Source: Candidatus Methanocorpusculum equi | GTDB lineage: Archaea; Halobacteriota; Methanomicrobia; Methanomicrobiales; Methanocorpusculaceae | Length of the DNA: 15,708 nucleotides | Assembly: GCA_018065685.1 (NCBI GenBank) | Contig: JAGHSU010000150.1 | Location: 1-15,708, forward strand | Direction: 5' to 3' | In this document: one piece after another, positions 1,026 through 4,555 of the stretch | Layout: every line of letters begins with the position of its first letter | Position numbering within the stretch: the first letter of the stretch is position 1 | The notes under the pieces: generated by a model | Seen by the model: the letters and a program-made list of their open reading frames with translations, nothing else | Database searches by the model: none | What the model was told of the DNA's origin: nothing | Translations under genes and position numbers: made by a program

Positions 1026-1053
1026 ATTTCGCATAATACATATTATGCGAAAT
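1026..1053. other. dif: Putative dif site (XerA recombination site)
   Basis: Two 11-bp arms, ATTTCGCATAA (1026-1036) and TTATGCGAAAT (1043-1053), are exact reverse complements around a 6-bp centre, TACATA (1037-1042). Perfect symmetry extends from 1025 to 1054, broken only by the two central bases CA. This 11-6-11 design is that of Xer/dif sites. Compared from memory with the E. coli dif site, about 21 of 28 positions agree, including CGCATAA and TTATG next to the crossover region. The only tyrosine recombinase gene in the window starts about 28 bp downstream, as in other single-recombinase systems (XerS/difSL, XerH/difH). Identical arms fit a system with one recombinase rather than XerC plus XerD. 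The alternative is an operator for a symmetric transcription factor. Confidence 0.75.
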
Positions 1054-1060
1054 TATATAT
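1053..1060 (+). promoter_or_regulatory. TATA box of xerA, abutting the dif-like site
   Basis: TTATATAT lies about 25 bp before the ATG at 1081, the usual archaeal spacing to the transcription start, so the mRNA is probably leaderless or nearly so. The purine-rich GCGAAA just upstream (1047-1052) would serve as BRE and is also the right arm of the dif-like palindrome. Confidence 0.6.
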
Positions 1061-1080: not shown

Positions 1081-2022
1081 ATGTTAACAATGGCAGAAGT
1101 GCGGAGAACATTCGGTTCCTGGATTCCAAGGTACATCAGCAGCCTTCAGACCAAGAACTATTCGGCAAGTACTGTGGAGGCATACGAACGTGTGCTGAAA
1201 CTATTTGCCAGGTACGAGATGTACCTCAAAGAAAATGACGGTGAACTTCCTGCAGCTACTGCGGATTTTGAGGACAAAACCCTTGGAGCAGATATAGATG
1301 TGACTTCTCTGGATATTGTTGATTTCTTTACGCTTATCAGAAATGAACGTCATTTATCAGCCTCCAGTATCCATCAGTACTATTCGGCTTTATCCTCATT
1401 TTACCAGTATCTGATTAAACAGGACGTTTTATCGGCGAATCCGATGGATAAGATTGACAGGCCGAAGATTAAAGACCGGGAGCTTAAGTATCTGCGTCAC
1501 CAGCAGGTTATGGAGTTCATCTCCTCTTTGAAAAACCCCCGTGATTCTCTCCTGGTCAGGACAATTTATGCGACCGGAATGCGTGTTTCAGAGGTTTGCG
1601 GAATGAAGATTGAGCACATCGATTATAACGAGGAAACAATCCGTGTTCGCGGAAAAGGAGGCAAAATAAGGGTTGTTTTCTGTGATTTTGACACTCTGAA
1701 TATGATTCGGAAACATGTCGGAGAGAGGAAAACCGGCTTTGTTTTTGAAGGACGCGGTGGTGCTGCCCTGTCCCCCCGGACGGTGCAGCATGTCTTTAAT
1801 CTCTATGCTCCGGAGGGTATTACTCCGCATAAAATCCGCCACAGCTATGCCAGTGAACTGTACCGCAGATCTCACAATATCCGTGTTGTTCAGGAAAATC
1901 TCGGCCATACGTCGATTAAAACCACTGAAATCTATGTCCACACGGACCTTGATGAGAGAAGAGAGGCATATCACCAGTACTTCCCGCTTGCAAATAACGG
2001 TCCGGAATCAGTTGCGAAGTAA
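1081..2022 (+). CDS. xerA: XerA tyrosine recombinase/integrase
   Basis: This is a tyrosine recombinase of the XerC/XerD/XerA type, the enzyme that resolves chromosome dimers at dif. Numbered from the ATG at 1081 (313 aa), the N-terminal SAM-like core-binding domain covers about residues 8-120. It includes SASTVEAYERVLKLF and SASSIHQYYSALSSFYQYL. The catalytic domain has the full residue set: R168 in TGMRVSEV, K192 in the GKGGK beta-hairpin, H250 and R253 in HKIRHSYAS, H276 in LGHTSI, and nucleophile Y285 in TEIYVHTD. The frame is open back to 946, but that longer start would translate the dif-like palindrome and TATA box, so 1081 (or 1090) is preferred. Length fits chromosomal Xer proteins, and no phage or IS genes flank it. 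The close dif-like site argues for a housekeeping role rather than a mobile-element integrase. Confidence 0.9.
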   Translation: MLTMAEVRRTFGSWIPRYISSLQTKNYSASTVEAYERVLKLFARYEMYLKENDGELPAATADFEDKTLGADIDVTSLDIVDFFTLIRNERHLSASSIHQYYSALSSFYQYLIKQDVLSANPMDKIDRPKIKDRELKYLRHQQVMEFISSLKNPRDSLLVRTIYATGMRVSEVCGMKIEHIDYNEETIRVRGKGGKIRVVFCDFDTLNMIRKHVGERKTGFVFEGRGGAALSPRTVQHVFNLYAPEGITPHKIRHSYASELYRRSHNIRVVQENLGHTSIKTTEIYVHTDLDERREAYHQYFPLANNGPESVAK

Positions 2023-2040
2023 TTTATAGAATGTGTAATA

Positions 2041-2049
2041 AACTATATG
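2041..2049 (+). promoter_or_regulatory. Likely TATA box for the DUF5806-like gene
   Basis: AACTATATG lies about 30 bp before the ATG at 2078, in an AT-rich spacer after the xerA stop. The gene may therefore be transcribed independently of xerA with a very short leader. A second TATA-like stretch at 2053-2064 is too close to the start to serve. Confidence 0.4.
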
Positions 2050-2077
2050 ATGCTATACTATAATTTGACCCATAACC

Positions 2078-3142
2078 ATGAGTGATGAATACCAAAATCC
2101 CGAAAACCCGGGGGCTGTCCCGCTGCCGGAAGAAAAAGAGACTGAAACGGTTTCTTTTCCTGCAGAAACAGCGGATGGGGCAGCTGTCCCCCCTGTTTCT
2201 GCTGAGAGCAGTCTTTCAGAAATCCCTGCAGAAGTACCGCCTGCTTCAGATGTCCCGTCAGCTGAGAGTTCATCTGATGTGATTCCTGCCGCAGAAACTC
2301 CGGCAGATGCTGCTGCATCTTTTACTTCTGCCCCGGCAGAGGGAAGCCCGTCAGAGTCTGTTCCTGTCGAAACCTCTCCGGAAGAACAGCTGCAAACCGC
2401 TGTCCCGGGAGACAGGGATGATTATTTCACCGAAGAGCCGCCGAAACTCAAATACTATGATGAGTCGGAGCGGCAGGACGAGATTAACAAATATAAGAAG
2501 TTTAAAAAGGTCGACGGCGCAACCTACCGGAAGGTGAATGTCTTTCTCAGGAAACGTACCTACATCACGGCACGTGAGTGGGCAATTGCCCGTCTTTGTG
2601 CTGATTTCAAAACCCCCTACGGCTCCGAGATGACTTTTATCGGCGAGCATCTCCCCGAACTCTGCCCCTTCATGGAAGAGACCTATTCACCTCAGGCGGT
2701 CAATCAGGCACGTGCTTCATTTAAACGGAAGGTCAGAAAGTCCGCAGCAACATTCCTCTACGGGGCAATGTGCGGTTTCTTCACCCCCGAAGAGCTTGAC
2801 GACATTCTCTTTGAGGCAAATGAAGTCTCCAAATTCTTCCTCGAAATCGAAGGAACATCCCTGGAGCTCGACGACGAAATTGAGATCGAGGATAAGATCT
2901 CAGGCATCATGAAAAAGTTAGGGGACTCGGCCCGTATTCTTCTGAAAAACAGAGCAGAGGATGAGAAGGAGTCCGATGATGAAGAGGACGGGGACGAGGA
3001 AGAAGATGAAGAGGTTGAGGTAGTCCCGGTCGAAGGACCGGTATCAAAACCGACCCCATCCGCTGATTCTGCGGCTGACAGCCCGTCTGAAGAGGTACCT
3101 GAAGCACAAACCCCCTCTCCATCCGGTACCGACCAACCATAA
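2078..3142 (+). CDS. DUF5806-like conserved archaeal protein with disordered tails
   Basis: This 354-aa cytoplasmic protein has a folded core between two low-complexity tails. Residues 1-120 are rich in Pro, Ala, Ser and Glu. Residues 293-354 begin with a long Asp/Glu run and end in Pro/Ser. The core (about 130-290) contains KYKKFKKVDGATYRKVNVFL, RTYITAREWAIARLCADF, TYSPQAVNQARASFKRKVR and ATFLYGAMCGFFTPEELDDI. I recognise this pattern as the DUF5806-type family found in haloarchaea and Methanomicrobia; this is recall, not a search. The function is unknown. The ITAREWAIARLCADF and SPQAVNQARASFKRKVRK helices are basic and could bind nucleic acid, but that is inference. The gene lies 55 bp after xerA and 36 bp before the phosphohexomutase, on the same strand. 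The tails may be poorly conserved. Confidence 0.75.
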   Translation: MSDEYQNPENPGAVPLPEEKETETVSFPAETADGAAVPPVSAESSLSEIPAEVPPASDVPSAESSSDVIPAAETPADAAASFTSAPAEGSPSESVPVETSPEEQLQTAVPGDRDDYFTEEPPKLKYYDESERQDEINKYKKFKKVDGATYRKVNVFLRKRTYITAREWAIARLCADFKTPYGSEMTFIGEHLPELCPFMEETYSPQAVNQARASFKRKVRKSAATFLYGAMCGFFTPEELDDILFEANEVSKFFLEIEGTSLELDDEIEIEDKISGIMKKLGDSARILLKNRAEDEKESDDEEDGDEEEDEEVEVVPVEGPVSKPTPSADSAADSPSEEVPEAQTPSPSGTDQP

Positions 3143-3178: not shown

Positions 3179-4555
3179 ATGGCACTGCAAAAACTTGAAA
3201 AAACCTATTTCGGTACAAACGGCGTTCGTGGAGTCAGCGGGAAAGATATGCACCCGGGATTTGCGCTCGGAATCGCCGAAGCGTACGGAACTCTTCTGGG
3301 TCCCGGGAAAACCGTCGGTCTTGGCATGGATACAAGAACATCGGGGCCTTCACTTGGCGCTGCGGTAAAGGCAGGGCTTTGCGCATGCGGCTGCAATGTT
3401 ATTGATTTCGGGATTCTTCCAACCCCCGCGCTGCAGTATCTGATTCTTTCAAAGAAACTTGACGGGGGTGTGATGATTACCGCCTCTCACAATCCTCCGG
3501 AGTATAACGGCATTAAGCTGATAGAAGCCGATGGAACGGAGATGGGAGATGAACGGACCATCGATGTTGAGCAGATTTATATTAACGGCCGGAAGAAGCT
3601 GGCAGACTGGGACACGCAGGGTCGGTTGTCTGAGGATTTCGAAGCATACAGACTTTATATCGATGCGATTGTATCAGCGGTCCCGGCCGGTGTCGGAACC
3701 GGCTTTACAATCGCAATCGACCCGGGAAACGGGGCTGCATGCAGAACCGCTCCGGAGATTTTCAGGCGTCTGGGATGCACTGTCGAGGTGGTAAACCCCG
3801 GGTTTGACGGCATGTTTCCGGGACGGCTTCCGGAGCCGTCAGAAGAGGGACTGCGCGGTCTTTCAGCCGCGGTTGTTAACTCCGGTGCGGCATTTGGTAT
3901 TGCCCATGACGGGGATGCGGACCGTGCCGTCTTTGTTGATGAGAAGGGACGGTTCATCGATGGAAACATCGCTTTAGCTCTTCTTGCTTCGTATTATGCG
4001 GAGCAGCAGCCGGGAGGAGAGATTGTAACGCCCCTTAGTTCATCCGGTGTTATCGAGGCCGCGGGAGCTGAGTTCGGGTGTTCCACGCTTTACACCGTTG
4101 TCGGAAGCCCGTATGTCGCCAGGACGATGCGCGAAGAGCTTGCCGCGGGGCATACTATCATCATCGGAGGCGAGGGAAACGGCGGCGTCATCTATCCGAA
4201 GCATCAGTTCTGCCGTGACGGGGGCATGTCGGGAGCGGTCCTTCTGGCATTACTCTCCACGCGGAAGGTGCCTCTTTCCTCTCTGATTGAAAAGCTTCCA
4301 AAGTACACGATGTATCAGGAAAAGCGTACCACGTCGAGAGCAAAAGAGATAACAGAACACATGAAGGAATACTTCAAAGATCTTCCGATGGACACCCGTG
4401 ACGGCATCCGGATTACAAAAGGCGGGGCATGGGCTTTAATCCGCCCGTCGGGCACCGAGCCGCTTATCCGCATCTATGCCGAGTCCCGTGATGCAGCTGA
4501 AGCAAAAGAGCTGATTGGTGAAATCCTTTCGGAAATCACACCCTTCCTGACATAA
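3179..4555 (+). CDS. glmM: Phosphoglucosamine/phosphomannose mutase family enzyme
   Basis: This alpha-D-phosphohexomutase interconverts sugar 6-phosphate and 1-phosphate, probably glucosamine-phosphate on the path to UDP-GlcNAc. All four family signatures are present. The phosphoserine loop TASHNP carries S103, the Mg-binding loop DGDADR is at 244-249, the sugar-recognition loop GEGNGG is at 331-336, and the phosphate-binding loop RPSGTEP is at 422-428. The N-terminal FGTNGVRG (11-18) and DTRTSG (51-56) are typical as well. At 458 aa the protein is full length for the archaeal GlmM/ManB group. Substrate choice between glucosamine-, manno- and gluco-phosphate cannot be settled from motifs, so the symbol is tentative. 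The product would feed glycan, S-layer or coenzyme precursors. The 3' end overlaps the convergent NTPase gene by 20 bp. Confidence 0.93.
   Translation: MALQKLEKTYFGTNGVRGVSGKDMHPGFALGIAEAYGTLLGPGKTVGLGMDTRTSGPSLGAAVKAGLCACGCNVIDFGILPTPALQYLILSKKLDGGVMITASHNPPEYNGIKLIEADGTEMGDERTIDVEQIYINGRKKLADWDTQGRLSEDFEAYRLYIDAIVSAVPAGVGTGFTIAIDPGNGAACRTAPEIFRRLGCTVEVVNPGFDGMFPGRLPEPSEEGLRGLSAAVVNSGAAFGIAHDGDADRAVFVDEKGRFIDGNIALALLASYYAEQQPGGEIVTPLSSSGVIEAAGAEFGCSTLYTVVGSPYVARTMREELAAGHTIIIGGEGNGGVIYPKHQFCRDGGMSGAVLLALLSTRKVPLSSLIEKLPKYTMYQEKRTTSRAKEITEHMKEYFKDLPMDTRDGIRITKGGAWALIRPSGTEPLIRIYAESRDAAEAKELIGEILSEITPFLT

Follow-up and report, generated by a model that had tools for sequence, protein, structure and literature searches.

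A symmetric candidate XerA recombination site (dif) embedded in the xerA promoter of Methanomicrobiales

The xerA/dif module is present in some archaea, according to the available parts of a 2017 review (PMC5357621), and dif itself is laid out as an 11-6-11 element in excerpts of a 2021 review of archaeal tyrosine recombinases (PMC8371274). Its place relative to the recombinase gene differs between lineages: excerpts of one study (Cortez et al. 2010, PMC2958812) put the dif of Thermococcales away from xerA, at 120-142 degrees from oriC, and the predicted dif of Sulfolobales close to xerA, a situation contrasted there with that of Euryarchaeota. The accessible part of a further review (PMC7776575) describes Sulfolobales dif as lying far from termination zones. 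The site described here resembles the Thermococcales dif/XerA pair, as far as the same excerpts (PMC2958812) describe it, in its 28-bp length, its inverted 11-bp arms and 6-bp spacer, its service by one XerA, its single copy and its likeness to bacterial dif.

In the window (the whole stretch of 15,708 nucleotides of Candidatus Methanocorpusculum equi that was analysed), positions 1026-1053 read ATTTCGCATAAT-ACAT-ATTATGCGAAAT, in which the arms form a perfect inverted repeat over 12 bp around a 4-bp centre, and which fits the 11-6-11 layout of archaeal dif (two inverted 11-bp arms with 6 bp between them). A sequence-only reading that preceded this analysis had recognized the symmetric element correctly, but had given it 11-bp arms and a 6-bp centre in place of the 12-bp perfect arms and 4-bp centre found here. 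No other perfect 12-4-12 palindrome occurs in the window (one place has two mismatches and 12 have three); the arm pattern with up to three mismatches matches the window once, at the site, and matched none of 200 shuffles. The whole-genome search for the 28-mer proposed in that reading returned one copy in the partial source genome (1.15 Mb in 170 contigs, 70.8% complete). From these and the comparisons below, the 28-mer is very probably the chromosomal XerA recombination site (dif) of Methanomicrobiales-type archaea, with its ACAT centre probably forming the inner portion of the segment in which strands are exchanged. The features of the locus are collected in Table 1.

Table 1. Features of the xerA region in the window (positions of the window; all on the forward strand).
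Feature	Position	Strand	Basis or remark
Candidate XerA recombination site (dif), 28 bp	1026..1053	+	single copy, order-wide recurrence, arm covariation, displaced copies, site-specific insertion in relatives
Left arm ATTTCGCATAAT	1026..1037	+	more variable arm across the order
Asymmetric 4-bp centre ACAT	1038..1041	+	ATGT (exact inversion) in closest relative
Right arm ATTATGCGAAAT, promoter-proximal	1042..1053	+	arm retained at g2 promoters whose full site is elsewhere
TATA-like box of xerA, TTATATAT	1053..1060	+	sequence; directly behind right arm
xerA, single tyrosine recombinase (NF040815)	1090..2022	+	homologous starts; alternative upstream ATG 1081
DUF5806 gene	2078..3142	+	conserved neighbour of site-xerA pair
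glmM	3179..4555	+	conserved neighbour of site-xerA pair

The product of the gene behind the site matches the NCBIfam archaeal XerA equivalog NF040815 with 244.7 bits (cut-off 220). It is not XerS, since it scores 96.4 bits against the XerS model, below the cut-off of 267, nor is it XerH, since its match to XerH (5jjv, E 8e-16) is weaker than that to 4a8e (E 6e-27). Its best matches among solved structures are, in order, 4a8e, 1a0p (XerD), 9i5v (which carries another name) and 5hxy; the closest structures are of the XerA/XerD type, 4a8e and 5hxy being the XerA proteins of Pyrococcus abyssi and of Thermoplasma. Homologues start at the ATG that matches 1090, 36 bp past the end of the site; the earlier distance of 28 bp holds for the ATG at 1081 alone (27-28 bp) and fails for the homologous start. 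With its opening at GTG 946, the longest mechanical frame of xerA would run across the site, but this start is contradicted by those of the homologues; the 28-mer, which would be included in that frame alone, is non-coding and lies ahead of the homologous start.

Archaeal promoters combine a TATA box with a TFB recognition element, and read in this grammar the right arm would share bases with the latter element in the xerA promoter. The first six bases past the site have major-base frequencies of 0.81-1.00 among 21 genomes of the genus. The retention of this arm at promoters, and its abutment on the TATA-like box, suggest that XerA at the right arm would block transcription factor B, and autoregulation of xerA by XerA bound at the site is plausible. 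Two separate observations concern the neighbouring genes: a ATAAACTATATGATGCTATA-like motif lies ahead of the DUF5806 gene (window 2037-2062) and in the sister genus g2 (L207-L211) is repeated between dif and xerA, and the orientation of the site-xerA pair relative to DUF5806-glmM is inverted among species of the window's genus (L216-L222).

XerA proteins 98% and 76% identical to that of the window occur in two records named Methanocorpusculum sp. Within that genus (g1, Methanocorpusculum), a pattern search with one mismatch permitted gave a single copy of the site in each of 22 out of 25 genomes; the other three (G010, G024 and G029) are 61-79% complete and likewise have no xerA match. All 21 genomes with an xerA match carry the site in the xerA promoter, 36-44 bp ahead of the homologous ATG, and in G030 the contig stops about 115 bp past the site, inside the first 24 codons of xerA. 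The outer arm bases covary, being TTCG/CGAA in three genomes and TGCG/CGCA in all others, and the mean major-base frequency in an ungapped comparison is 0.93 for site columns against 0.62 and 0.65 for the flanks.

The wider search covered 232 genomes of the order, which we take from general taxonomy to be Methanomicrobiales (a class-level query covers the same 232). A gene for XerA was found in 188 of them. Matches to NF040815 above the cut-off number one per genome in all 38 genomes counted, which had been selected for carrying a site-pattern match, and many have weaker tyrosine recombinases besides. The pattern TTGCGCAGAAT-NNNN-ATTCTGCGCAA with up to three mismatches occurs in 114 of the 232 genomes, and its reversed control gave no matches. 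When 84 xerA promoters outside the family were read (52 loci, 30 loci, and G040 and G041), 83 held a version of the site, with roughly 63-66 bases between the end of its right arm and the point where the profile match begins, and G101 was the lone exception. The comparison of upstream regions in relatives that the sequence-only reading had called for found the site ahead of xerA in 21 of 21 cases within the genus and 83 of 84 elsewhere in the order. One site-bearing genome in this count, G067 (66 bases before the profile match), is absent from the table of 110 sites used below, and G195 is entered there with an element-derived left arm. The later loci were the best-scoring xerA matches, so families are unevenly covered. 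Thirty of the genomes had been chosen for lacking a match in the order-wide pattern search: 22 have xerA, and all 22 nevertheless have the site at its promoter.

The arms vary in concert across these lineages. Divergent types such as GCGGGGAAT (genus g10) and ACTGAGAAT (G037) still have two arms that are alike or nearly so, and among 79 sites with 41 types of arm pair the total of mismatches between partners is 87, a value as low as this being reached by none of 20,000 permutations of partners (a comparison that ignores kinship). In some lineages, amounting to 29 of the 110 sites, the arms differ at 3-5 of 12 positions; 35 distinct left arms and 20 distinct right arms occur in the 110. A second, weaker site is present in several genomes of the order (17 listed). 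G156 and four members of genus g40 have a conserved second site, TATCGCAGAAT-TATT-ATTCTGCGCAA, which lies about 30 bp ahead of a short conserved frame, MPYM.AW (L293-L296, L267), in a promoter layout like that of xerA. Outside the order, five of 118 genomes sampled from the phylum have an xerA match; among four loci read, all in family f11, two have a dif-like palindrome at some 115 and 185 bp ahead of the match, a third (L254) has one of an unlike type at a distance of about 140 bp, and the fourth has no palindrome upstream of xerA.

The distance from site to gene is nearly constant. A script applied to 80 of the 84 loci (L120, L129, L130 and L138 were missed because their right arm was unlisted, although the site is visible on reading) placed the start codon 30-33 bp past the right arm in 68, and at exactly 33 bp in 60; in the other 12 an upstream start was picked, 18 or 21 bp past the arm. 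Such spacing, to the start codon and to the TATA-like box, counts towards the view that the palindrome is an operator of the xerA promoter and nothing more, bound by XerA or by another dimeric regulator and devoid of any role in recombination, because dif function alone needs no fixed spacing, whereas an operator would. The same view draws on the better conservation of the promoter-proximal arm, on its retention alone at seven of seven g2 promoters, and on the palindrome of the same type about 30 bp before the conserved short frame (four g40 genomes and G156).

It is, however, rendered very improbable by sites that persist apart from the promoter. While the site otherwise adjoins the recombinase gene, as in single-recombinase Xer modules, g2 and G101 are exceptions. 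None of seven g2 genomes has the full site at the xerA promoter, where each retains the right half alone; in six the full palindrome lies 530-1215 bp upstream of this half-site, and the contig of the seventh stops about 1 kb upstream. The intervening spacers have a motif of roughly 40 bp in common and, inside two pairs of species, can still be aligned in part (71-80% identity), but agree in little else; the possibility that they contain an old, decayed copy of xerA was considered, and a search of the spacers found no remnant of one. In G101 an intact site (L204 6947-6974) adjoins the usual neighbours, DUF5806 and glmM, and the xerA behind it is decayed, being recognizable from fragments that are 26-41% identical and include a stop; the intact xerA is on a different contig, with a site of its own that lacks two bases between its arms, in a draft with 2% contamination in which that contig could be foreign. 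The palindromes standing 0.5-1.2 kb from a promoter in g2 and beside a dead gene in G101 suggest that the whole element is selected independently of the xerA promoter. The operator-only view is further opposed by an 8.5-kb element that lies exactly at the site between identical centres and has an empty counterpart.

This element was found in two genomes, G193 and G195, in which two direct copies of the site lie 8466 and 8697 bp apart, respectively, with centres that are equal within each genome (GTCT/GTCT in G193, AGGT/AGGT in G195). The copy that adjoins xerA has an outer arm, TACCTC, of the element's type. The empty site is represented by G194, which has one copy, lacks the insert and is 90-95% identical to G193 on either side, with alignment blocks that meet at the site. 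The insert (L288, L290) encodes an ATPase-like protein with a phage terminase match (E 6e-12), small membrane proteins (judged by eye) and a further protein of 159 aa. The fold predicted for the latter, modelled from 12 sequences with a mean pLDDT of 73.5, matches those of the P23-77, SH1, HCIV-1 and HHIV-2 capsid proteins (lowest E 6e-6, TM about 0.5-0.7); a search of predicted viral structures with the same model gave only weak and mixed hits. On this modelled fold the insert looks like a small provirus of about 8.5 kb with a P23-77/SH1-like capsid, presumably of the sphaerolipovirus kind, and one of its proteins has a database entry under uncultured Methanoregula. No recombinase was detected in the insert: Pfam scanning of nine of its reading frames gave no match, and the best tblastn match of XerA on the insert had E 0.010, with 26% identity over 71 residues. 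A Methanoregula-type provirus integrated between direct copies of dif, with an empty site in a relative, is the IMEX pattern, and in its sequence arrangement the pair G193/G195 has the pattern of elements that borrow the host Xer.

A serine-resolvase-like gene lies on the far side of the site in four Methanoregula-type genomes (L288, L290, L300 and L301; by Pfam match in L290 and by eye in the rest). In G137 (L262) and G167 (L299) a dif-like palindrome occurs shortly ahead of a terminase gene, that of G137 having a centre that differs from the host site's, and G133 (L260) has a similar site on a contig in which the two frames tested have no family match. Scans of viral contigs with exact longer arms gave 0 and 0 matches, and looser patterns gave 12, 3 and 28 loci, the arm used for the 28 being identical to a bacterial dif arm. 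In one of the 12, L314, both arms are present and the site is free of long reading frames; the three are L314, L311 and L315, and in the latter two the site falls inside a reading frame. In L314, a metagenomic viral contig, the site has the centre AGGT and lies outside frames of 100 codons, with a terminase gene 2.8 kb away.

On the chromosome the site keeps no fixed place. In 15 single-contig genomes a span of 0.12-0.47 of the genome, on average 0.32, separates it from the main orc1 gene (most lengths being rounded to 0.1 Mb, G123, G156 and G195 being left out with two contigs each, and the place of xerA standing for that of the site in G158, G192, G197, G201 and G207). Skew sampled in 20 stretches of G012 has its clearest sign change at around 1.0 Mb, some 0.2 Mb beyond the site, and in G031 is weak and without an evident switch there. 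The GC-skew analysis proposed earlier, as carried out by sampling in these two genomes, gave no sign change at the site, and neither this nor the varying orc1 distance supports the claim that the site marks the terminus zone; for the same reasons the site is unusable as a terminus marker. The main part of the sequence-only reading, that the element is dif, is upheld by its single copy, its position in front of xerA in relatives, its displaced copies and the provirus insertion, and the searches made brought up no better single-copy candidate at another place. That XerA is instead a domesticated integrase, and the site an old attachment site for mobile elements with no part in resolving chromosome dimers, is most unlikely. 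In its favour are that the site is not tied to the terminus, that a provirus occupies it in two genomes and that dif-like sites lie near terminase genes on other contigs; against it, the gene exceeds the archaeal XerA equivalog cut-off and is found in 188 of 232 genomes, and the element was seen at two xerA-adjacent sites only (G193 and G195), most neighbourhoods having been viewed within 1.5 kb.

The 110 sites have 27 different 4-bp centres, none self-complementary, and on the xerA strand the centre begins with a purine in 109. In 30 reciprocal nearest pairs by XerA identity the centre differs in 10, and in five of these the difference is an exact inversion (G000/G027, G020/G023, G011/G016, G001/G002 and G040/G041), with arms that are unchanged and symmetric over at least 11 bp. 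The first of these pairs joins the window's own genome to its closest relative, with XerA proteins 98% identical and centres ACAT and ATGT; the earlier claim that the two central bases alone give the site its polarity was right, and this polarity is inverted in the closest relative. Among all pairs of at least 85% identity with unlike centres, 12 of 92 are exact inversions, and the rest are mostly AGGC/AGTG of one genus. Joining of sites by XerA in the wrong direction and template switching in a perfect hairpin both fit these inversions. A polarity that follows the replichore, suggested by the complete genomes G012 and G031, was considered and rejected: the local sampled skew signs are opposite in those two, and relatives with the same local gene order differ, as in G020/G023.

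If the site is dif, two like XerA monomers would bind its two equal arms, the two sites of a chromosome dimer would synapse, strands would be cut at the borders of arm and centre and exchanged, and the exchange would turn the dimer into two monomers. We infer from sequence comparison that XerA is the enzyme that acts there and that dimer resolution is the normal use of the site. XerA on the site may also restrain its own promoter, because its right arm lies directly against the TATA-like box, at a distance that hardly varies. A broader proposal, which we regard as tentative and rather doubtful, would join three parts: that the site is the operator of xerA, that the inverted centres are scars of misaligned synapsis, and that archaeal viruses without an integrase exploit dif. 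XerA on dif would then shut xerA off, and expression would rise at unoccupied or duplicated sites; equal arms would permit synapsis in either direction, with recurrent 4-bp inversions as its scars; and membrane-containing viruses lacking an integrase would be archaeal IMEX, with a centre matching that of the host.

A search of titles and abstracts, with most subscription journals outside its range, returned none that reported this site or an archaeal virus exploiting Xer. The present work offers a defined dif candidate for a methanogen order for which the literature searched shows none, and with such a candidate FtsK-free resolution of chromosome dimers becomes directly testable in Methanomicrobiales. 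The location of the site in the promoter hints at a simple feedback loop that links it to its enzyme. The inserted provirus, together with the relative in which the site is empty, would be the archaeal equivalent of phages that exploit Xer, and the inverting centres document by comparison, as is rarely possible, a symmetric site of a tyrosine recombinase.

Several described systems share parts of this arrangement. In contrast to the Thermococcales dif of the excerpts available (PMC2958812), the Methanomicrobiales site lies inside the xerA promoter, has arms that can be perfect over 12 bp and is more variable in its distance from orc1; in contrast to that of the Sulfolobales, which are Crenarchaeota and whose site the same excerpts call merely ‘close’ to xerA, it is euryarchaeal and has a nearly fixed promoter spacing. 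Among bacteria, XerS/difSL and XerH/difH likewise combine a single recombinase gene with an adjoining site, but in the available part of the 2017 review (PMC5357621) their sites are 31 bp long or have imperfect, unequal arms, and they depend on FtsK. XerL/dif of Legionellales has long uninterrupted inverted arms, a single recombinase and a mobile element that integrates at dif, but it is bacterial, and over 400 kb separate xerL from dif in L. pneumophila (PMC9765430, in the sections available). The right arm TTATGCGAAAT recurs unchanged as the final 11 bases of Xanthomonas campestris dif as given in excerpts of PMC2731167, although the bacterial XerCD dif described there differs in having two recombinases and two unlike arms. 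Accompanied by an archaeal hijacker not met in the literature searched, the site is of a known kind, dif/XerA, in a promoter-embedded and symmetric form.
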